A stretch of 24,784 nt of DNA from positions 1 through 24,784 of IMG/VR virus record IMGVR_UViG_3300020471_000045. One strand, given 5' to 3'. Of this stretch, positions 1 through 21,452 are shown one piece after another. The position numbers and the translations under genes are program-made. Below the pieces are notes generated by a model. The model did not search any database. It was not told the DNA's origin and saw nothing but the letters and a program-made list of their open reading frames with translations. The stretch comes from a virus. The stretch's first letter is position 1, and each line of letters begins with the position of its first letter.

Positions 1-3000
1 GAATCATGGAAGGCACGGAGATACCTGTTCTCCATATCAAGCATCATCTTACTGATCCGCTTATTGCTGTACTTCTTGGCAACTTTAGCGGGGGTCATCC
101 TTGGGTCATAGCTTGCTGTCTTAGAGCTAGGATCACCGATTGGGTTTAGGTAAGGAGGAACAGCTTCCATTACCTCACCGTTAATCTTCACCTCAATGCC
201 ACGCTTGCTTCTTTCTATGCGACTATCCCTGATGCTGACGATCTTGTTTATCTGCCGCCGAATTTCGTTCATCCGTGTCCCTCTGGACTTCTGACCTGCA
301 AGCTCGTTGTTTAGCTTTTTAAGTAATACTTGGTTGCGCCAAATCTCTTTCTTAACTACGGACTGCCTAGCTAATAGTTCGCCCAAGTATTCCTTAACAT
401 TCCTCTCTACCCAGTTAGCTTTCTCCCAGCCCTTAGCACCCTTAGCCCATTTGGGTCGCCTACTAGCTATGGTAAGGGGAACTGTCTGGTTGCCTCTGCG
501 GATGCCCCACTGGAATGGCTGTCCTTTAATAACATTACCACCCGTCTCTGGGTCTAGGGATACAAAGCCACCACCTATCTGTGGGCCAGTGCCAATGCCT
601 CCCATCTTTACTTTTATCTTAGTGTTAGCCTCAGATGCTACTACATTGTTTTCCTCAAAGCCCTCGAACTGAGCTTTAATAGCGTCATCACTCCACTTAA
701 TAAAATAACCAGACCACTTGGGGGATTCAGGGGTGGATAGGTTTTGGGAAATCCAGTTAAGTGCTTCAGAGAACTTACCCTCAGACTCCTTGACTAGCTC
801 GCTGTATCTGTTGGGAGATATTTCTGGGCCTAACTCTCTCAGGTTCATCATCTCGCTAAGAACCAATCTCCTAACGTGCTGCTTAAACCTTTTACCGTTA
901 AGCTCATCTATCTTCTTACGAATCTGTATTGCCTCTTCCTTTAACTGGTACAGATCAGACTCGACCTTTGGCCTATCCTTCTGGGCCTTCATCCTCCAAT
1001 CAACCCTGTTAGCGAACTCAGGAATAATAACCTTAGTGTAAATATCTTGGTTGACCCTAGAGTAATGCCACCAAGGCTGATCCTTCCAGCCAGACAGGGA
1101 CTCAGGAGACTCATCCTCATGCAACCTTTTCCTGAAGTCGGACAAGAAAGACCTTACAGCAATCTTGGTCGCCTCCATTGCCCGTATCTTTTTGCTGCCC
1201 ATGTTGGCTAGTTCAGTAGAGCCAGAATGGTAGTCCTCTATAACGGAGTCTATTTTTGTAAGATCAGCACCCTCTACACCCTCCTCAACTTCAACAAACT
1301 CCTCCCCGTCAAAAACAAGTTCCGGTATTTGCGAGGTAAAAACTTGAAGTTCTTTATCTGTAAACCTTTCGTCGGTTACAGTCTCTTCAATAACTTCAGC
1401 CCTAAATCCACCTTCCTCTCTAAGATCATCCCATCCGGTCATGCTGCCTTCTGAGAACTCACTCGCTGTACGGGTCGCTGTTGCCCCTCCTGCTATGTTG
1501 CGGGACTCACCTCCTGCTACGCGAATCTGCTTCTTAGACCTACGCTTGCGTTCCTGCTCTGAAAGCCTTTTACCTTTAGTTGACTGACCTCCCTTAACTG
1601 ACTCGATCCTAGCCTCCTCTCTTCGCCGAGCTCGAACCTGATCCAAGAAGTTTCTTTTTAGAATAGCCGCACCGGATATAGGTGCTTTGGTTCTGGCTAC
1701 TCGCATTATGTCAGGGCTTAGGGCGGCTTGCTCAGGGGTAGCACCACGACTTATCTCGTTGTCCATTACCTCTTCTGCTCTGCGTCTTAGCTCCTCAATC
1801 ATACCCGCCCTGAACTGAACCCTACCCTCTTCAGTTGTAGTTCCTTGAGCGTATGTGTTGAATCCGTGGAGAGCATCGTAAGCCATGTCGTATGCTTCAG
1901 TGCCAAACTCTCTCACATTACCTGCCGCAAGTTTCAGCGCGGAACGACGAGCACCCTCAAAGTAATTTATCTTTTCTATGGTTCCCGACTCAGGATCAAT
2001 AGCATTCCAACGCTTGCCCCAGTTATCGCTTTCAATGCCCCAAGAGCCGTAAATGGATATAGGGAAGTCCTTTGACTCAAGCCTTTGAAATAGTGGATGC
2101 CACTCCCTGCCTGAAGCCTCAGCATCTTTAGTGATTGATTTCTTGTGAAGATTGCCAGTGAGAAGCTTGTTGAGTTCGTCAGGGGAAATCTCAAGCTCCT
2201 GCTCAAGAACTAAGTCCTCACGCTCTGGCCTCTTTCCCTGAGTAAAGCCCAGAAGCTCACGCTCGGATGACTCGGCTGGGTCGGCAGACATTAACTGCTT
2301 TCCTATGCGTTGCTCTAAACTCCTTGTGTCACCCTCACCGCCATACTCTCTAGCGAATTGAGGTTGACCACCGAACATACCTCGATCGGGAATCTGGGCA
2401 TCACCCCTCTTACCGACTCTGCGAACACTCCTCTTAGCTTTCGGCTTATCTTCACCCTCTGGGAACTCTTCAAACAGTGCCTCCTGCTCGGTAGCGGGAT
2501 CACCTATCTGGCTCATCTCCTCTTCTGTGGGTCTTAGCTCATTAGGAAATAGCTCTGCTGGTAAAGAGTAGAAACCACCGCCCTCACCCGAATCCTCTGG
2601 CGGCTCTGGTGCAAATAGATCGCCTTGATTGGGGTCGCCCTTCCTCCTCCTAGCAAACGGTGCTATGTCATCTTCGCTTGGTGGTGCAACCTTTTTGGCT
2701 ATCTGTTTTAGAGCTTCATTTTCTAAGTGAGCACCTATGGTTATTATGGCGTTTGCCTCATCAGCATTAAGCCTAGTCTCCCAAAACGGATCGTTAACTA
2801 CAGCAACGGCAGTTTCGTCAAAGCCAATATAGTTAGCCTGTTCGTCATTTAAGTTTTTGATTAGCTCTTGAGCCTTATCCCCATCTAGCTCGGAAAGGTT
2901 TTGGTACTTTGTAATATCCTCCCAGCTTTCGATTGCAGAAAGAGCATTTTTTTGGGCGGCGCGGGCCTCGGCGTACCTTTGCTCGCCCTTCTCAAAAGCT

Positions 3001-4712
3001 GCTTGTGGGTTGAGCCCTTGTATAACGTAGCCTTTATCAGCGAGTTTTTTCTCGACCTCCTTACCCTTAGCTAGAAGAGATGCATCGTTTTCAATTTCAA
3101 CACCGCCCTCTTCAAGAGTTTTATCCCTAAGTTCAGATACGGTTTTCTCGTCACCTTCTCTTAGTGCAAGCCTGTACTTGTTGATAGATGAGCTTTTCCC
3201 GATAATGTAATCAGTGCCTCGACGTTGGGTCTCAGATTCCCCTACCTGCTGACTCGGCCTGATGGGTGGGCCATAACCTCGATCACCCATCCACATATTC
3301 AAAGCCCTGTTAGCGTCAGCTTTACTCATCCTGCCCATAGCACCCATCTCGCTTGGAGGGGTCTTGCCCTGAGCTTCTGCTTCAAACACTTCATCTACAT
3401 GGGTGTTAATTACATCGCCCTGTAACTGAGTGTAGTAACCTGAGTTAACTAGCTTCTGAGTTTCTGCCTTAATAGAATCAGCGTCCACCCCAGCCTTTCG
3501 CCTATCCCTAATAATACCGTTCAGGGCTTTTGAGTGATCGGCAGACATATCTTTAGTCAGGTTAGCTGCGCCGATCTCAAGCGGAGCCATACCGAACTCA
3601 GCGATGCCCTCTAGGAATACACTCTTCCAATCGTTAATCTTACCCTCGGAACTAAGCTGCCCGAAAAATTCCCCAGATGCTCCGAGTGTGCTTTGGAAGG
3701 CGAGTGGTGCAGCCATCGGTGCAGCTTTTTGTGTTCCCAGCAATCCTATCCTTGCCGCGTTATTTAGTAAGCCTTCCTTGCCTACCATAACCTTAGCCTT
3801 ACTACCTGCGGCATTGGCAATTCTCACGCCAGCATTAACACCTCTACCAGCTAGGCCCATAGATAGAGTGTCGAACATGGCAATAGGTATGCCGTACTTT
3901 GCTGCCTTGCTTCTGGCTTTCTTTAATGTTTCAGGGTCATTGAGAGAATTAAACAAAGCTTCAGGGTCATCCATTACGCTGCGACCAACCGTTGCTTCGA
4001 TTGTCTCAAGAAACTTAGATGAGGCGGATAGGTCGTAAGATGTTTTACCTAAGCCACCTGCTGCACCCCACAACGCACCGCCAGCCGCAGTGACAGCAGA
4101 CCCCGGCCCTGACCAAGCACCAACAGCAGCACCAGTAGCAGCACCAGTAGCAGCACCACCAGCAACATTCTTCCAGCCGTTGTGAAGTAGCGCAGCCATA
4201 GATTCAGTGACTACCTCACCTATAATGTAAGGGGTTTCTTTTAGCCCCCAAAACTCACCCCAAGATTTAATGAACCCATCAGCCTCTTGGAACTCTCTAA
4301 ACTCGTCAGATACTTCTAAGTCCTCTAACTCTTTCCTTATCTCAATTAACTTGCGAGCGTCATCTACAGTAAACTCTTTATTGACTCCAGAGAATGAAGT
4401 AACAATATCCGCTTGCTTAGACATTAAGATGCCGCGCTTGGCTGGGTCTTTAAGCAGTGTGCCGAATATGCCTCGCTCTTCCTCTGGCTTCTCCATTGCT
4501 TGCTGGAAGCCCTGAACAGTCTGCCTATCGAAAGCAGCACCATTCTCTCTGTCTTTGATTCTTTGGTAGGTGTCCCTGTACTGATTAAGCTCAGGGTGTG
4601 TTCTCCAAGCGTCTGGGTCTTTAGTCAGAATAGCAATCCCAAGCTGGGCGTCAGTGTACTCAGCTTGATCTGGATAACGCTGCCGCCACCAATCAAATAT
4701 AGAAGTAGACAT
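1..4712 (-). CDS. Giant internal virion (ejection) protein, T7 gp16 position, 3' end beyond window
   Basis: An uninterrupted minus-strand frame runs from ATG at 4712 to the window edge, giving 1570 residues without a stop; the C-terminus is missing. The start overlaps the stop of the upstream gene as TAATG. The N-terminus (FDWWRQRYPDQAEYTD) resembles the short N-terminal motif of large phage ejection proteins. A Gly/Ala-rich hydrophobic stretch lies at about residues 183-215 and could insert in a membrane. The middle is charged and low-complexity, with acidic and Pro-rich linkers. Residues about 917-1045 form a helical, Arg-rich segment that loosely recalls sigma-factor region 2. The last third is helical with many Trp and charged residues. 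The position after gp14- and gp15-like genes and the great length (T7 gp16 is about 1320 residues) support an ejected virion protein. I see no transglycosylase motif I would trust. The role is inferred from context, size and composition. Confidence 0.75.
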   Translation of the reverse strand, partial: MSTSIFDWWRQRYPDQAEYTDAQLGIAILTKDPDAWRTHPELNQYRDTYQRIKDRENGAAFDRQTVQGFQQAMEKPEEERGIFGTLLKDPAKRGILMSKQADIVTSFSGVNKEFTVDDARKLIEIRKELEDLEVSDEFREFQEADGFIKSWGEFWGLKETPYIIGEVVTESMAALLHNGWKNVAGGAATGAATGAAVGAWSGPGSAVTAAGGALWGAAGGLGKTSYDLSASSKFLETIEATVGRSVMDDPEALFNSLNDPETLKKARSKAAKYGIPIAMFDTLSMGLAGRGVNAGVRIANAAGSKAKVMVGKEGLLNNAARIGLLGTQKAAPMAAPLAFQSTLGASGEFFGQLSSEGKINDWKSVFLEGIAEFGMAPLEIGAANLTKDMSADHSKALNGIIRDRRKAGVDADSIKAETQKLVNSGYYTQLQGDVINTHVDEVFEAEAQGKTPPSEMGAMGRMSKADANRALNMWMGDRGYGPPIRPSQQVGESETQRRGTDYIIGKSSSINKYRLALREGDEKTVSELRDKTLEEGGVEIENDASLLAKGKEVEKKLADKGYVIQGLNPQAAFEKGEQRYAEARAAQKNALSAIESWEDITKYQNLSELDGDKAQELIKNLNDEQANYIGFDETAVAVVNDPFWETRLNADEANAIITIGAHLENEALKQIAKKVAPPSEDDIAPFARRRKGDPNQGDLFAPEPPEDSGEGGGFYSLPAELFPNELRPTEEEMSQIGDPATEQEALFEEFPEGEDKPKAKRSVRRVGKRGDAQIPDRGMFGGQPQFAREYGGEGDTRSLEQRIGKQLMSADPAESSERELLGFTQGKRPEREDLVLEQELEISPDELNKLLTGNLHKKSITKDAEASGREWHPLFQRLESKDFPISIYGSWGIESDNWGKRWNAIDPESGTIEKINYFEGARRSALKLAAGNVREFGTEAYDMAYDALHGFNTYAQGTTTEEGRVQFRAGMIEELRRRAEEVMDNEISRGATPEQAALSPDIMRVARTKAPISGAAILKRNFLDQVRARRREEARIESVKGGQSTKGKRLSEQERKRRSKKQIRVAGGESRNIAGGATATRTASEFSEGSMTGWDDLREEGGFRAEVIEETVTDERFTDKELQVFTSQIPELVFDGEEFVEVEEGVEGADLTKIDSVIEDYHSGSTELANMGSKKIRAMEATKIAVRSFLSDFRKRLHEDESPESLSGWKDQPWWHYSRVNQDIYTKVIIPEFANRVDWRMKAQKDRPKVESDLYQLKEEAIQIRKKIDELNGKRFKQHVRRLVLSEMMNLRELGPEISPNRYSELVKESEGKFSEALNWISQNLSTPESPKWSGYFIKWSDDAIKAQFEGFEENNVVASEANTKIKVKMGGIGTGPQIGGGFVSLDPETGGNVIKGQPFQWGIRRGNQTVPLTIASRRPKWAKGAKGWEKANWVERNVKEYLGELLARQSVVKKEIWRNQVLLKKLNNELAGQKSRGTRMNEIRRQINKIVSIRDSRIERSKRGIEVKINGEVMEAVPPYLNPIGDPSSKTASYDPRMTPAKVAKKYSNKRISKMMLDMENRYLRAFHD

Positions 4713-10742: not shown

Positions 10743-11744
10743 TTAGTATTCAATTTTCACAAAGCCGCCGTGACCAATGTCAGACGAAGTGCTAGGGGAG
10801 GCTGCGTTATAACCCCCTGCTCCGTATTGGCCTAAATAACCTGAACCCGGAAATCCACCGTTGTGATTGGATCGTCCACTAACACTTATGTCCACAGTTC
10901 CCGTAACTGAACCGCCAGCAACTTCAGTGTTATTAGACCTTCCTCCGCCTCCCCCATTTGCCTGATAGGTAACTGAGTCATACGTAATTGAGCTATTATT
11001 TCCATCAGTCGCGGAGTACGGGCCGGAGCCAATACCAGCGTCATTGCCAGTTGCATTGGCGGCAGCAACAACAGCTATTGTGTCTCCTGCCGTGACGGAA
11101 AAGGTCTTCTCAAAATAAGCCCCGCCAGCACCGCCATCGTCATTAGCATTCCCGCTGGTTGTAGAGCTGTATCCTGCCCCGCCACCCCCTTGAACCGAAA
11201 CTTTAACTCTCGTTACTCCAGTTGGAACTGTCCAATCTTCGTCGGCCCCGCTGTCAAAAAACTCAACCAAGGGAACTGGCGTGCTGACGGATGGCGTAGT
11301 CCAGCTTGCCGTAGCCCCTGTTCCTCCAGCAGTTAGAACCTGTCCAGATGTTCCTGTGCCTAATCTTTCAGGTGCGCCATCTGCACCATAAACCAAAACA
11401 TCACCCTGAGTACCGTCCTCCATTTTAGCAGGAGTGATTGCGTTATCGGCTACCATGTCTGTGGCAACCTGAACCTCCCCTACCTCACCAGCGGTGGCTG
11501 CACCTAGCAATCTATTGTCAGTGGCAGTGTCCTGAATCTTAGCGTAGGTAATGGCGTCATCGGCAACCTTAGCTGTAGTTACATTAGCGTCCAGTATCTT
11601 TGCGGTTGTTACAGCACTATTGTTAATCTTAGCTGTTACTACTGCATTGTCGTTAATGGTAGCATTGCCTACTAGATTGTTAAGATCACCGTGAGTTACG
11701 GATTGACCTGATGTGAATGTTGTACCACCCGTTAAGTCTGGCAT
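10743..11744 (-). CDS. Glycine-rich tail fibre / adhesin
   Basis: A 333-residue protein. Residues about 28-72 carry a short imperfect repeat of the form NAVTTAKI.DANVTTAKV.D, a beta-helical fibre-shaft pattern common in marine phage structural proteins. A Gly/Ala/Thr linker follows. From about residue 175 the protein reads DWTVPTGVTRVKVSVQGGGG and then a long Gly/Asn/Ser-rich stretch with repeated GGxGG motifs to the end. This matches fibre tips in which a small beta domain is followed by poly-glycine strands; the poly-Gly-II sandwich of the S16 gp38 adhesin is a structural analogue. The gene starts one base after the holin stop and is followed by the gp11-like gene 15 bases later. It probably binds the host surface. 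The fine receptor is not predictable. Confidence 0.65.
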   Translation of the reverse strand: MPDLTGGTTFTSGQSVTHGDLNNLVGNATINDNAVVTAKINNSAVTTAKILDANVTTAKVADDAITYAKIQDTATDNRLLGAATAGEVGEVQVATDMVADNAITPAKMEDGTQGDVLVYGADGAPERLGTGTSGQVLTAGGTGATASWTTPSVSTPVPLVEFFDSGADEDWTVPTGVTRVKVSVQGGGGAGYSSTTSGNANDDGGAGGAYFEKTFSVTAGDTIAVVAAANATGNDAGIGSGPYSATDGNNSSITYDSVTYQANGGGGGRSNNTEVAGGSVTGTVDISVSGRSNHNGGFPGSGYLGQYGAGGYNAASPSTSSDIGHGGFVKIEY

Positions 11745-15700: not shown

Positions 15701-16590
15701 TACCAGCCTTCTACGGTAAAATCTCCAGTCCCAAACGCAAAGTCGCTGTGACCCGTTGTTACTGCAACCGTGTCATTATTACCGTCGAAGTAAATCGCCC
15801 TATCATCACCAGTAAACGGATTGCCAACCGCAATGCTATGCTCTGGGTCGCCAGTGTCAGTAATCGTATGCCCCGCTGCCACATCAACAAAGTCTGTGTC
15901 GCCATCGTTGCGGCTTACGGAGGTTACGAGGAGGTCGGCATCGTGGGCTGGCTGTGCGTCGATGTGGAATCCGTTTGTGCCGAATGAGCCAGTGTAGGCT
16001 TTGGGTTTGTAGCCTCCGTAATTATTAGACTCGATAAAATCTGTGGGAGACTTTGCTTCGCCTTCAATGAAATAGATGTCTGCCAAATACTGCTCTGCCT
16101 TATGACTGCTAGAAGTGCCGTAGTTAGCGAATCGTATGCTGGTAACTGTATTCTGCGAGAGACTCATGCCTCCCATGTTAGGCGACAACTCACCGTTAAT
16201 GTATAAGTTGGCTGTGCTGGATGAGCAAACGAGGCAAACGTGATACCACGAAGATGGGTCGGTATATTTGGCTGTTGAAATTGTTACGCTTGAGCCTCCT
16301 CGGAAGTATCCTAGAGTTCCATCAGCAACGAAAGAACCCCCCCAATAAAGCCCTGACGCATCATTGATTGAAAAGACGTATCTGTTGTTCGTATCAGGAG
16401 GAGTAATCCATGCCCGTTTCATCCAAAACGCCAGCGTCCAAGTTGTCTCGCTGGAGCTAACTGTTCGATGGAGATACGCACTGCCATCAAACCGCAGCGA
16501 ACGCACCACAGGGTCTTCGGCTGGGGTTGAGTCACCACCGCCCCCGCCGGAAGCTGGCTTATTCCACAGTGCTGATCCGAAGTCTGCCAT
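12775..16590 (-). CDS. Multi-domain adhesin: three LamG-like, one SPRY-like and DUF7483-like domains
   Basis: A 1271-residue protein; the start overlaps the previous stop as TAATG. Three concanavalin A / LamG-type domains are seen at about residues 27-185, 262-425 and 480-640. Each has a strand ending YFDG or RFDG, a W(Y/H)HxxLV motif with a following Y(I/L)(D/N)G hairpin, and a GYIFD(V/A)R.TKG-type close (a degenerate form in the first). A linker (DQSGNKNHF near 659-667) leads to a SPRY-like domain at about 690-870 (KWYAEL, DIIGIALNAD, SLYKNGSLVG). Segments at about 893-1030 and 1160-1262 resemble DUF7483 (GFRPALVITK, WDSARG, FLSNGFKL). Such proteins are glycan-binding tail appendages or fibres in marine phages. 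Function is inferred from domains; the sugar target is unknown. Confidence 0.75.
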   Translation of the reverse strand: MADFGSALWNKPASGGGGGDSTPAEDPVVRSLRFDGSAYLHRTVSSSETTWTLAFWMKRAWITPPDTNNRYVFSINDASGLYWGGSFVADGTLGYFRGGSSVTISTAKYTDPSSWYHVCLVCSSSTANLYINGELSPNMGGMSLSQNTVTSIRFANYGTSSSHKAEQYLADIYFIEGEAKSPTDFIESNNYGGYKPKAYTGSFGTNGFHIDAQPAHDADLLVTSVSRNDGDTDFVDVAAGHTITDTGDPEHSIAVGNPFTGDDRAIYFDGNNDTVAVTTGHSDFAFGTGDFTVEGWYYFKSIPSGTDAMLVDLRPTNSTDTDTFAFSTDTTNGVKVYSGANYTLGGSLSTNTWHHIALVRDSGTLYAYIDGTATGTTRSFSNDLTANSTPRLGATADAGTSAAFTGYIFDVRITKGTARYTSNFTPPTSKLETEDSDTKLLIQPHKDDTNFHDETSNSHALSVTDSPTRTASTPYEAAAKSTAMYFDGNDNITTSTSTDLAIASGDSFTAECWVYFNSTHSTHDGIFSTYGVGDVYGWVIECTGGYWGVYDSGGGRQTSSTAATTGEWHHVALVKTDNTSNGARLYLNGNKINDVTVSSNITSARSVTLGNYYAANSTYDIDGYIFDARFTKGEEKYTGSTYTVPSAPFELNPVYLGGDQSGNKNHFEPTSISQAHDVLIDNPFKNHPTWNPLVNSSNTFSEGNLKVTTTSSTPAKIVSTIGASSGKWYAELLYTGQANYPLGVTADNRERDYLGNSDGNTSISFWTGTAGTSVYINGSSVSFSGSSTTWANGDIIGIALNADDEEVSLYKNGSLVGAAVSYSSYNWTEAFFAAGNYVSGLVYHANFGADPTFAGNKTSGQDTSQSEFYYAPPTGFKSLNTSNLAAPSVAPSEHFGVLTYVGNSDLYYGSGSTQNVTGVNFDVGMAWIKDRDNSAESSFTGSGSDEYGNYLFDTITGTSTGGYNLDGDVASSSGGPYLNSGEEGVISFSAGSGTNRGITVDQAGETNYYYDEFGFYEITERYVAWLWKLGSTGSSSTWNSSYTAPSTEHYNSSAGVTTIEVSPASSGNLEVAHSLSAAPEFFFVADDQGSANFSGFPAFHKDLSSGNYLQLDGNSAQSSDSTYFPSGAAHADYIKLGSAFIDDYGYGFNLRIWAFTGVEGYSKFGKMTGNGSSSDGVFCYLGFRPALVITKNISNTSGYHWRMWDSARGSNNVNDEVLYPSSSLNESTSDGHMDFLSNGFKLRSSAGNLNNDTYIFAAWAEQPFAAPSNAR

Positions 16591-18493: not shown

Positions 18494-19501
18494 TTAGGCA
18501 TACGCGCTCTTAGAACGCAACACCACGAACCAGTTCTCATTAAGAACCTTAGCGGTGTAGTATGCTTTCCAGCCAATCGTGGTGGTCTGGTTGAGTGGAT
18601 CGCTCTTGTCAGGAGTGTCAGTAATGACAATCGAAGGCGACTTAGGTGACTCACCGGATAAGGCAGGTACACCAAACGCCTGACCACCCATCACGAAGGA
18701 GGTGAAGATGTCACCAGAGGCACTGTAAGTACCCTTGGCGGAACTCGAATCCTCGATGAATGGGTTGGTATCTTCGATGACTTTAACTCCGTGGAAGGAG
18801 CCGACCTCACCCTTGAACAAACCTTGGACTGCGCTGTACTTGTGAGCTTCCAGCCAATCAGTGTTGTTCATCAGATCACGGGTCACTTGTGGGGAAGCAA
18901 CCATAACGTACTGACCGCCAATCTGCGGAGCACGGTTGATCTTCAGGTTAGTCACACTGTCCAACAAGTCAGTTGCGTCAATTTTAGTATTGGCAACCGT
19001 GTCGGCAGCTAACTCAGCCCAAGTAGGAGTAGCATCACCACCAGAGTAACGCTTGGTACGGCTGTCGCTCTCGTCGCTGTCGGTCTTGTTCACCAACTCG
19101 TCACGGATAAGGTCATCCATGTAGAGGGCAGCATCTTCGCCATTAGTCTTAATAGCTTGCTGCATGATGTTCAGGAGCGAAGTAGCGTTGAGAACGTCAG
19201 TCACGCCGATCACCTGACCGATTTGGTTCAAGGTGGCATCGACGTAGCCGAGCGATAACTCACGATAGTTGCTGCTGCTAATCGCAGAACCCTCAGTCAA
19301 GTCCTGCACACTGGCAGTAGAAGGCTCGCCAAAACGGAAGAACCGAATGGATTGAGCCCCCGCGTTTTTGGGGAGTGCTGCGGTTTGAGCGAACTCAGCC
19401 TTGCGTAAAGACTGAACGGCGTAGTCTAGCAGTTGCTTGCTAAAGTACGTTTGGTATTGATCCGCCATTGTGGACGGATTCGATGTGCTTTGTAGAGCCA
19501 T
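18494..19501 (-). CDS. Major capsid protein (N4-gp56-like family)
   Basis: A 335-residue protein directly downstream of the scaffold gene, the usual place for the major capsid protein. Features seen are an N-terminal helix-rich segment (LLDYAVQSLRKAEFA), a strand-turn with SIRFFRFGEP about 50-60, an acidic segment (LTEGSAI), and the pattern YVDATLNQIGQVIGVTDVL about 86-104. These match the N4-gp56 family of HK97-fold capsid proteins as I know it. The middle contains QYVMVASPQVTRDL (about 198-211) and the later segment GEVGSFHGVKVIEDTNPF (about 231-248), both typical. The ATG has no Shine-Dalgarno sequence within 20 bases; the best one lies about 30 bases upstream, ahead of a two-codon ORF. 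Confidence is high in the capsid role and moderate in the family. Confidence 0.85.
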   Translation of the reverse strand: MALQSTSNPSTMADQYQTYFSKQLLDYAVQSLRKAEFAQTAALPKNAGAQSIRFFRFGEPSTASVQDLTEGSAISSSNYRELSLGYVDATLNQIGQVIGVTDVLNATSLLNIMQQAIKTNGEDAALYMDDLIRDELVNKTDSDESDSRTKRYSGGDATPTWAELAADTVANTKIDATDLLDSVTNLKINRAPQIGGQYVMVASPQVTRDLMNNTDWLEAHKYSAVQGLFKGEVGSFHGVKVIEDTNPFIEDSSSAKGTYSASGDIFTSFVMGGQAFGVPALSGESPKSPSIVITDTPDKSDPLNQTTTIGWKAYYTAKVLNENWFVVLRSKSAYA

Positions 19502-19516
19502 GATTTATGCAATAAG

Positions 19517-19540
19517 TTAATCCATTAGTAGCCTCCTCCT
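19517..19540 (-). promoter_or_regulatory. Strong Shine-Dalgarno plus two-codon minicistron ahead of the capsid gene
   Basis: On the minus strand AGGAGGAGG (19540-19532) is followed after six bases by ATG GAT TAA (19525-19517). This start overlaps the scaffold stop as TAATG. The major capsid ATG lies only 15 bases after the TAA and has no ribosome site of its own. The strong site also encodes the end of the scaffold (Gly-Gly-Tyr). Capsid translation could therefore depend on termination and re-initiation from this minicistron. Confidence 0.45.
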
Positions 19541-20481
19541 GCATCTACTTCCGCAGCGCGGCGTTGTAGTTCCGCGAACTGTTCCTCCGGTGTTAGTTCG
19601 TTAAATGAACGATCACCAGTTGGTGCAGACGGGTCAGAGCCTCCAATGGAGAGTTTAGATTTTAGACCAGCATTCTCTTCAGTGAGAGCGTTGATCTGTT
19701 CTTGAAGCGAGTTAGCTGATTCTGCTTTCTGCATATTGGCAACAATGTCTGCCGCATCTATAATGCCGCCTGAATAAGTTGCTAGGACGGGTCGCTCTTG
19801 GAGAATCTGGTTAACAGCCTTCCTGAATGTGGAATCTCCTTCTCTTAATTCAGGGTAGGATTTAGCGGCTTCCTCGAAATTAGCGGCCCATTCTTGTTTG
19901 AACTGACCTTCATTCTTGGAAACCTTATGTTCCTGAGCCATAGCCCTGACCTCTTCGGCTTGCTCTCTAGCTTTCTCAGCTAAACGCATTTCACCTTCAA
20001 GCTCAAAGTTTCTGGCTGCTGCTTCATAGTCCTCCGCAGAGTTGCCGTCCGAATCAACAAATTCCTCTGGCTTACCTCGGTCATTAAGCGATTGCCTGAC
20101 TTCTTCAAGCTCCTGCCTTTGCCGTGCAAGCTCAGACTTTTCGTCATTCAGTTTGCGCCAAGAATCGTTAAGCCGTTTTTCAGACTTAGTAGACTTGCTA
20201 TCTGCTTCACTTTTCAAAGAACTGTCAGGCACTTCTGGAGGCCCAGCTTCTTTCTGCGGTTCAGGTTCGGCAGGTTTCTCCGGTTCCGCTGGCTTCGGCT
20301 CAGGTGCTTCAGCTTTAGGTTTCTCCGGTTCGGGCTGACTCTGTTCGTTCCGCCTCTGCTCGATCTCAGCAGTGGGAACTTCAGCAGGGTGCGACCCCTC
20401 ATCATAACCCGATAACCTGTCCTGTTCCGCAGCCATTTGCTGTAGCTGCTCCAATGTTACGCCCTCTGTTTCTTCACTCAT
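19525..20481 (-). CDS. Capsid scaffolding protein
   Basis: A 318-residue acidic, helical protein without Cys, immediately upstream of the capsid gene. Residues 49-85 are a Pro/Glu/Lys/Ala repeat (EPEKP, EPKPAEPEKP and similar), likely extended. Residues about 100-190 predict long coiled coil (KSELARQRQELEEVRQSL), with further helix at 255-277. The last 30 residues hold NELTPEEQFAELQRRAAEVD, a plausible capsid-binding helical tail. Composition, length and order (portal, scaffold, capsid) match podovirus scaffolds (T7 gp9, about 307 residues). The start overlaps the stop of the 45-residue ORF as ATGA and has no ribosome site of its own, so it is probably translationally coupled to it. No protease motif is seen. 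Confidence 0.8.
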   Translation of the reverse strand: MSEETEGVTLEQLQQMAAEQDRLSGYDEGSHPAEVPTAEIEQRRNEQSQPEPEKPKAEAPEPKPAEPEKPAEPEPQKEAGPPEVPDSSLKSEADSKSTKSEKRLNDSWRKLNDEKSELARQRQELEEVRQSLNDRGKPEEFVDSDGNSAEDYEAAARNFELEGEMRLAEKAREQAEEVRAMAQEHKVSKNEGQFKQEWAANFEEAAKSYPELREGDSTFRKAVNQILQERPVLATYSGGIIDAADIVANMQKAESANSLQEQINALTEENAGLKSKLSIGGSDPSAPTGDRSFNELTPEEQFAELQRRAAEVDAGGGY

Positions 20482-20615
20482 TTTTTATCTTTGTGCATTT
20501 TTTCAGATAAGCTCGCACATTGCTTACCTGTGGTGTGTCTTATAGTTTCGCCTAGGCCCGACACCAGCTTCGGCGTATTCGGGATGTCTTTAAGTTTCGA
20601 GGTCGCTTGGCTCAT
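20478..20615 (-). CDS. 45-residue small protein translationally coupled to scaffold
   Basis: This short ORF runs from ATG at 20615 to a TGA that overlaps the scaffold ATG (ATGA). It begins MSQATSKLKDIPNTPKLVSG and ends with a Lys-rich tail (KMHKDKK). GGAAGGGG and GAGG lie just before the start, within the end of the preceding 104-residue gene, which it overlaps by 26 bases. It fills what would otherwise be a 108-base gap, and the scaffold start has no ribosome site of its own. These points suggest a real cistron. I do not recognise the family; a small head-assembly or regulatory protein is possible. Confidence 0.55.
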   Translation of the reverse strand: MSQATSKLKDIPNTPKLVSGLGETIRHTTGKQCASLSEKMHKDKK

Positions 20616-20904
20616 CCCCTTCCAAGTCCTCGTAAAGTTCTTTGTTGGCAAGTGACTCTATGGCACTCACACAACCCTTAAAACCATTAGCAAACCCTGC
20701 GCTGAAAACAAGGTCTTTTTTATCCTCTAAGCAATAAGACTGATTTCTTATCACCATATTCGCAAGTGTTCTGGAAAACTTCTGCCCCGTTTCGCTCTCT
20801 AGGAATAATAGTAGTTTGACGGAATCTTCTTCTTTCCACTCCGGTTCTGGTGTCCATTGTACCTCTCTGGCGAATAACAGCATCGCCCTTATCTTTCTAA
20901 ACAT
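20590..20904 (-). CDS. Hypothetical protein between HNH endonuclease and scaffold
   Basis: A 104-residue protein with AAGGAAG about 7 bases before ATG at 20904. The first 20 residues are hydrophobic and basic. The middle (DSVKLLLFLESETGQKFSRT) and later part (FSAGFANGFKGCVSAIESLA) look helical. The tail is acidic (LEGDEPSDLET). Small proteins with this LLxFLxSxxGQ / AGxxxGFxxxV layout are common near portal and scaffold genes in podoviruses, but I know no function. It overlaps the HNH gene by 16 bases and the downstream 45-residue ORF by 26 bases. Confidence 0.55.
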   Translation of the reverse strand: MFRKIRAMLLFAREVQWTPEPEWKEEDSVKLLLFLESETGQKFSRTLANMVIRNQSYCLEDKKDLVFSAGFANGFKGCVSAIESLANKELYEDLEGDEPSDLET

Positions 20905-21452
20905 ATTTTACTTCCTTTTCTTAGGTTATCATGTTTCCACATTGGCTTTAAGTTACTAAAGTGCCAACAAGCTTCAAATTCTTTTTTATTAGATTGATCG
21001 TGAGCGCATACTGGAATGTGGTGGTCAACGTGCCAGTGAGTGCCATAGTTTTTCCAAGTCATCCCTCTCTTAAATTGAACTTCAAGGTGTTTCAGGAAAT
21101 GTTCCCTACTACAACCTAGTGTCTTTTCAGCTATCTTGCTTTTACCTTTTATTACCCTGCTTATTCTGTTTCTAAGGTTTGCTATAATTCTTAGGGCAGG
21201 GTTGCTAAGGAAAGCCTCTTTTCTTCTTTGGCTTATTATATCCTTATACTTACTCCTGTAAGCCTTCTGCTGCGCTCTTATCTTTTTTGTGTTTTTCTTG
21301 TAATATTCCTTACTTCTCTCCCTATGCTCTTCTTTATTCTCTTGGTAGTATTGTTTATACCACGCAGCTATCTTTTTCTTATTTTTCTTTGCGTAAGCTT
21401 TTCTGGTTTCAGGGTAGTTATCTTCTCTACTGTTGTTGGATTTGTTCGGCAT
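20889..21452 (-). CDS. HNH endonuclease, probably a homing endonuclease
   Basis: A 187-residue protein. Residues 1-80 are a very basic Lys/Arg/Tyr-rich helical region typical of DNA-binding N-terminal tails in phage HNH proteins. The C-terminal domain has ...GTHWHVDHHIPVCAH (about 137-151), giving the His-x-Asp-His core at 141-144, and NLKPMWKHDNLRKG (about 167-180) with the conserved Asn and the second His-Asn helix. These residues suggest a metal-dependent nicking or cutting activity. The start is 26 bases inside the end of the portal gene and the end overlaps the next gene by 16 bases. Base composition is visibly more AT-rich than the neighbours, supporting a recent mobile origin. It has no obvious intron partner here, so it is a free-standing endonuclease. 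Confidence 0.85.
   Translation of the reverse strand: MPNKSNNSREDNYPETRKAYAKKNKKKIAAWYKQYYQENKEEHRERSKEYYKKNTKKIRAQQKAYRSKYKDIISQRRKEAFLSNPALRIIANLRNRISRVIKGKSKIAEKTLGCSREHFLKHLEVQFKRGMTWKNYGTHWHVDHHIPVCAHDQSNKKEFEACWHFSNLKPMWKHDNLRKGSKICLER

Follow-up and report, generated by a model that had tools for sequence, protein, structure and literature searches.

In the marine phage contig described here, the gene for the major capsid protein is preceded by a two-codon mini-ORF that overlaps the stop of the putative scaffold gene, and the scaffold gene is preceded by two tandem H-type RNA pseudoknots whose stems covary. The mini-ORF and its spacer are conserved in the lineage of this contig and in one further relative, and no junction of the clade has both a mini-ORF and a normally spaced Shine-Dalgarno sequence (SD) for the capsid gene. 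We propose, at close to even confidence, that scaffold and capsid are expressed as one coupled unit by way of the pseudoknot leader, a restart on the mini-ORF and a restart on the capsid gene.

The scaffold-capsid junction

The window, by which we mean the whole stretch of DNA that was analysed, is a contig of 24,784 bases from an uncultivated virus, and its genes lie on the minus strand. At the junction the features are the following.

18494..19501, minus strand: major capsid protein gene, 335 aa, with no SD in the 18 nt before its ATG
19525..20481, minus strand: putative scaffold gene, 318 aa, Glu-rich, with the tail GGA GGA GGC TAC TAA and no SD
19540-19532, minus strand: AGGAGGAGG, the SD-like sequence of the mini-ORF, made of Gly codons of the scaffold tail
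19525-19517, minus strand: two-codon mini-ORF ATG GAT TAA (ATG 19525-19523, TAA 19519-19517)
19502-19516, minus strand: 15-nt A/U-rich spacer with a TTGCAT box, before the capsid ATG

We regard the identity of the capsid gene as firm from the match of its product to the PHROG 1357 major head protein (E=1.4e-47) and also to Pfam Phage_capsid_3. The scaffold gene is putative, being named by its position and Glu-rich composition only, and in family searches no family gave a scaffold identity to the 318-aa protein. Between the portal and scaffold genes lies an Endonuclease VII-like gene (20889-21452, minus strand; PHROG 1035, E=1.1e-7). Since the capsid N-terminus, MA..., is kept in relatives that carry an SD at this start (L021, L028-L031), the capsid start at 19501 is right. 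A start at Met12 instead was rejected, Met12 not being conserved.

When the minus strand was re-read, the order given in the initial annotation was found to be exact: an SD, six bases (CTACTA, between AGGAGGAGG and the mini-ATG), ATG GAT TAA, 15 bases and the capsid ATG (19501-19499), which stands 15 nt past the mini-stop and 23 nt past the scaffold stop. The overlap that it described was also confirmed, the scaffold stop (TAA, 19527-19525) sharing a base with the mini-ATG (19525-19523) to give TAATG. The mini-ORF shares its frame with the capsid gene, and a second in-frame TAA follows downstream at 19507-19505. An SD and a short ORF immediately before a gene with no SD is the layout of minicistron coupling. 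The suggestion that the Gly codons resemble a ribosome site by chance applies to the SD-like part of the pattern. Because AGGAGG is formed by Gly-Gly codons, and GGAGGN is found in 24 of the 77 Gly-Gly pairs in the genes of the window, the SD-like part alone is unremarkable and within chance. The whole pattern, AGGAGG-N4-9-ATG-NNN-stop, is present at one minus-strand site of the window (in two overlapping registers) and at none on the plus strand, and shuffles of the minus strand contained 0.1 on average.

Folding of the junction in the window gave a z of -0.54, and a sigma-70 scan around it gave chance level only. A pseudoknot scan of the capsid junctions returned only a weak window-clade candidate, with a score of 24, within the scaffold tail. 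The TGCAT box of the capsid leader was considered as a repeated promoter and rejected, as it is not enriched in the window (18 matches against 26 expected; 8 against 6.8).

The initial annotation had called it odd that the most abundant phage protein has no ribosome site of its own; the capsid gene is not the only one without a site. Among 25 candidate starts that were scored, the scaffold start and those at 16590, 11744, 10047 and 4712 are likewise without an SD at normal spacing. Those at 16590, 10047 and 4712 each overlap the upstream stop as TAATG and that at 11744 is one base past a stop; of the 25, the scaffold and capsid starts alone lack an SD and also have no stop codon adjoining or overlapping the ATG. 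TAATG overlaps are found at five further gene junctions, namely, 24143, 18172, 16590, 10047 and 4712, with an SD-like sequence upstream of the first two, and this overlap is the usual junction type of this phage.

Capsid junctions in relatives

Searching viral contigs for the capsid protein gave 24, 71, 20 and 23 loci, mostly on the same contigs, the last two adding only L098. No relatives were found in the bacterial genomes searched, and among named phages there were no close DNA relatives and the protein relatives were at most 30% identical. The window clade consists of 32 sequences with 16 distinct junctions, which make up about five lineages by capsid similarity as judged by eye; because descent is shared, the 16 are not 16 independent cases.

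A mini-ORF is found at the scaffold stop in 11 of the 16 distinct junctions, and its end lies anywhere between 15 nt short of the capsid ATG and 13 nt beyond it. None of these 11 has a capsid SD at normal spacing, L012-L014 having just a GAGG 13-14 nt away. Four others (L021, L028/L029, L030 and L031) lack a mini-ORF, and in them an SD-like AAGG, GGGA, GAGG or GGAG stands 8-12 nt from the ATG of the capsid gene. The two are thus mutually exclusive in the clade, both at normal spacing being present in 0 of the 16. The remaining junction, the L009 type (L009/L010/L011/L025/L026; 5 of the 32 sequences), has neither a mini-ATG nor an SD and keeps the same capsid start. Relatives of just this kind, lacking the minicistron and keeping the capsid start, had been named beforehand in the initial annotation as refuting re-initiation, and they exist.

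The alignment of this junction in relatives, proposed at the same time as a check, gave a divided answer. The ATG-NNN-stop form, preceded by AGGAGG and separated by 15 nt from the capsid ATG, is kept in the window, L002-L008 and L022; elsewhere in the clade it is different or absent. The other mini-ORFs have 5 to 12 codons and occur in any frame. In L012/L013, L014, L015 and L027 they have 5 or 7 codons, and the distance from their end to the capsid ATG is 3, 3, 0 and -1 nt, respectively. In L016 a mini-ORF of 7 codons stops 7 nt short of this ATG and in L019/L020 one of 9 codons stops 6 nt short, whereas in L017/L018/L072 and L023/L024 the mini-ORF extends 13 nt beyond it. The gap from scaffold to capsid is 15-35 nt across the clade.

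Of 20 distinct junctions outside the clade, six (the L039, L042, L047, L048, L050 and L053 types) carry no SD and no mini-ORF. Because these six and the L009 type keep the capsid start with neither element, direct SD-less entry is possible in this capsid family. L067, which was left out of the 20, has AAGGGG-ACAAT-ATG-TAATG before its capsid gene (about 2990-3012). Here a start codon is followed directly by a stop, which in turn overlaps the ATG of the capsid gene; this is apparently an independent mini-ORF in a distant relative.

Use of the mini-ORF is, in our view, best supported by a single comparison, that of the window with L022. In L022 the scaffold stop is one codon earlier than in the window and AGGAGG-N5-ATG-GAC-TAA-15 nt-ATG is retained, with a silent GAT/GAC change in the second codon of the mini-ORF. 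The spacer from stop to ATG is identical at 18 of 23 positions (counted by eye) as against 44% identity, close to saturation, at the four-fold sites of the two capsid genes (binomial P=0.001). For L003 and L007, four-fold sites agree with those of the window at 95-96%; L003-L008, being near-identical to the window (as measured for these two), have no independent weight and only L022 has it.

Tandem pseudoknots in the scaffold leader

The leader of the scaffold gene contains two H-type pseudoknots, copy A and copy B.

20575-20535, minus strand: copy A, the upstream H-type pseudoknot, directly before copy B
Copy A stem 1, minus strand: CGCC/GGCG and GCU/GGC, in the window by eye and with an internal loop, in relatives by the scanner
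20564-20560 with 20539-20535, minus strand: copy A stem 2, GTGTC with GACAC
20530-20493, minus strand: copy B, the start-proximal H-type pseudoknot, ending 11 nt before the scaffold ATG
20530-20522 with 20512-20504, minus strand: copy B stem 1, CAGGTAAGC with GCTTATCTG
20518-20514 with 20497-20493, minus strand: copy B stem 2, GTGCG with TGCAC
20503-20498, minus strand: A-rich loop of copy B

Nineteen distinct leaders, out of 30 located, were aligned. In stem 1 of copy B (7 pairs counted, 9 if the invariant CA:UG is included) 99.2% of cells are paired and both sides have changed in 6 of the 7 pairs. For copy B as a whole 99.6% of cells are paired and covariation is 0.651 as against 0.202 +/- 0.029 in shuffles, a score that was matched by 0 of 500 shuffles, and a slid alignment gave at most 0.112. 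Stem 2 of copy B, GUGCG:UGCAC, has no letter that varies among the 19 aligned clade leaders and, because it is invariant there, is by itself no proof within the clade; in distant groups it is altered yet pairing (GUAUGC:GCAUAC, UUAGUGC:GCACUAA and UGAUUGC:GCAAUCA). With a covariance model the copy in distant relatives was picked up at E=0.00025 in L034, L040 and L068, and weakly in L035, L049 and L036. Stem 2 of copy A was compared in 18 distinct leaders, where all 90 of its 90 cells are paired and three pairs are double-changed (GUGUC:GACAC, GUAUC:GAUAC and GCGUC:GACGC). Its covariation is 0.336 against 0.199, a score that 0 of 500 shuffles reached. Crossing helices that are kept by compensatory change, the mark of an H-type RNA pseudoknot, are therefore present in this leader.

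A strict scanner was applied to 45 distinct leaders and located the start-proximal knot in 37 of them, the upstream knot in 25 and the complete tandem in 21. For comparison, of up to 400 segments drawn at random from these loci, 19 had at least one knot and 1 had two. No pseudoknot was found in the scanned leaders of L056, L060, L065 and L066, and no tandem pseudoknot in the three named phages examined (Y3, poppyseed and ctQWt234). A scan of IMG/VR for the copy-B pattern gave 54 stretches. Across all the loci collected by then, 41 distinct sequences have the pattern. Those that have the CA and 6-7 of the 7 stem-1 pairs number 21 and are all from this capsid family; the other 20, including L132 (7 of 7 pairs and no CA), look like chance. 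Rfam searches found no family in the window at the gathering score, just an 18-bit chance match to snoU31b elsewhere for positions 20300-20900 at E<=5, and no family in 10 relatives at E<=1.

Among pseudoknots already described, one stands in a phage leader, that of gene 32 of T4-type phages, and two kinds are tandem, STAXI and ToxI (the latter is taken up below). The gene 32 leader of T4, T2 and RB69 (PMC3014915) also has an H-type pseudoknot in a phage mRNA leader before the start codon, whereas the leader here, from another phage family, belongs to a scaffold gene and has a tandem pair that ends 11 nt from the start. STAXI (RF01728; PMC2864571) is likewise a pseudoknot in tandem repeats, but it has frequent UUCG tetraloops and is found near DNA-handling genes of Enterobacteriales. 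Among the titles and abstract openings of the literature on coupling, scaffold, pseudoknots and bar minigenes, a set with few subscription papers, none dealt with pseudoknots in front of a scaffold gene.

The TGCAT(TAAA) box at 19504-19512, just upstream of the capsid gene, is complementary by eye over 5-7 nt to the ATGCAC of copy B. This complementarity between the GTGCAT box of the capsid leader and copy B is seen in the window clade only and could be chance around the self-complementary TGCA.

Proposed coupling of scaffold and capsid translation

From the sequences we infer initiation on the mini-ORF, a restart at the capsid gene and control of translation by the pseudoknots, the tandem leader setting translation of the scaffold and, via coupling, that of the capsid. 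Ribosomes would enter at the SD-less scaffold start, behind the two knots, and at the end of the gene would stop at the UAA of UAAUG, where GGAGGAGG in the scaffold tail would help an immediate restart on the overlapping AUG. The mini-ORF, AUG-GAU, would be read up to the second stop, which would place ribosomes 15 rather than 23 nt from the capsid AUG, and from there they would reach that AUG through the A/U-rich, unstructured spacer and restart. The knots would set ribosome entry at the scaffold gene, maybe through autogenous repression by the scaffold protein; they could equally be a folded entry platform or protect the mRNA.

Parts of this arrangement are familiar. Termination-reinitiation at overlapping genes (TAATG or ATGA) has the same overlap of stop and start and an SD in the tail of the upstream gene; here, by contrast, the overlapping start opens a two-codon ORF and the next gene is 15 nt further on. 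Lambda has the two-codon bar minigene (PMC7948969). The uORF or bicistronic design (PMC12548453), which brings ribosomes to the gene downstream, also sets a strong SD and a short ORF ahead of a gene that lacks an SD, the difference being that here the arrangement occurs naturally, in the capsid operon of a phage, and is joined to the scaffold stop. The mini-ORF is probably a lineage-specific bridge and not a requirement, a coupling device of known kind.

The claim of the initial annotation that re-initiation at the minicistron ties capsid to scaffold output is supported by the retention in L022, by the trade-off in the clade (11 of the 16 junctions with a mini-ORF, 4 with an SD) and by the TAATG overlaps at five further junctions of this phage. 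The L009 type, the varying length and frame of the mini-ORFs and the six distant junctions speak against it. The gap of 15 nt is long for reinitiation. In E. coli, reinitiation shows a 40-80% loss at 14 nt and falls steeply with distance, to near zero at about 20 nt, according to PMC10666635. Because of the L009 type, the six distant junctions and this steep dependence, the re-initiation reading is just partly supported. In addition, a ribosome on the strong two-codon site could cover the capsid AUG, 24 nt away, and hinder it.

An unlikely but serious alternative is that the capsid AUG is entered directly with no SD, by binding of the ribosomal protein S1 type at its A/U-rich unstructured leader, the mini-ORF being a by-product of TAATG. 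The SD-less capsid starts of the L009 type and the six distant junctions, the A/U-rich TGCATTAAA-like box that is conserved before the capsid ATG in the clade and the lack of a fold in the spacer are all as direct entry would have them, but it explains neither why L022 retains the SD, ATG, GAY-TAA and 15 nt despite its moved scaffold stop nor why mini-ORF and SD replace each other. The ATG kept in L022 also goes unexplained if ribosomes that terminate on the scaffold gene reinitiate at the capsid AUG over 23 nt, with GGAGG only holding them and the mini-ORF unused. We consider that improbable; it agrees with the 15-35 nt gap found clade-wide and conflicts with the published distance dependence quoted above.

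The lambda barI layout is SD-AUG-NNN-stop. The two-codon ORF with an SD found here has the same build, and it may be asked if the mini-ORF lowers capsid output, by trapping ribosomes over the capsid start or by peptidyl-tRNA drop. This is quite improbable, because capsid protein is required in large amounts and the L009 type, with no mini-ORF, shows no stronger capsid site; moreover, here the codon is GAU, the mini-ORF is within an operon and there is no sign of a tRNA starvation role. T4 genes 25 and 38 have a split SD with a bridging hairpin, and a TAATG/CATTA hairpin could in the same way bring GGAGG near the capsid AUG. Such pairing is possible by eye in most of 12 aligned junctions, and the L009 type has TGATATA/TATATTA. 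We nevertheless give the split site very little credence: RNAalifold, run on 12 of the 16 distinct junctions (the four SD-type ones left out), found 0 consensus pairs and so no conserved SD-AUG stem, the window has 4 of the 5 pairs only, and L012-L014 have no upstream GGAGG. The pseudoknots themselves might be decoys of a type III antitoxin RNA (ToxI) against a ToxN-type host defence, their position before the scaffold gene being incidental. ToxI consists of tandem 34-36 nt H-type pseudoknots, similar in size to those here, and phages can evolve pseudo-ToxI (PMC5086642). This is the least credible of the alternatives, since the two copies are unlike each other in sequence, were found at most in pairs, adjoin the scaffold start as a gene leader and have no Rfam match; PADLOC found no toxin among 10 small window proteins, and near-identical repeats beside a ToxN-type gene were not seen.

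The P22 scaffold protein is autoregulated. Under the coupled reading that we prefer, a fuller scheme can be put forward tentatively, at well below even confidence: the tandem-pseudoknot leader would control the scaffold gene, for example through binding of the scaffold protein to the mRNA that encodes it. The mini-ORF would hand the same flow of ribosomes on to the capsid gene, and the phage would in this way dose both assembly proteins through one autogenously regulated unit that has no SD at either start.

Scaffold and capsid are needed in the right ratio, and this clade seems to start both assembly genes without ordinary ribosome sites, with pseudoknots for the scaffold and a mini-ORF for the capsid. 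If a second, tandem kind of pseudoknot controls capsid assembly genes, then the way in which uncultured marine phages control the stoichiometry of assembly can be put to the test.
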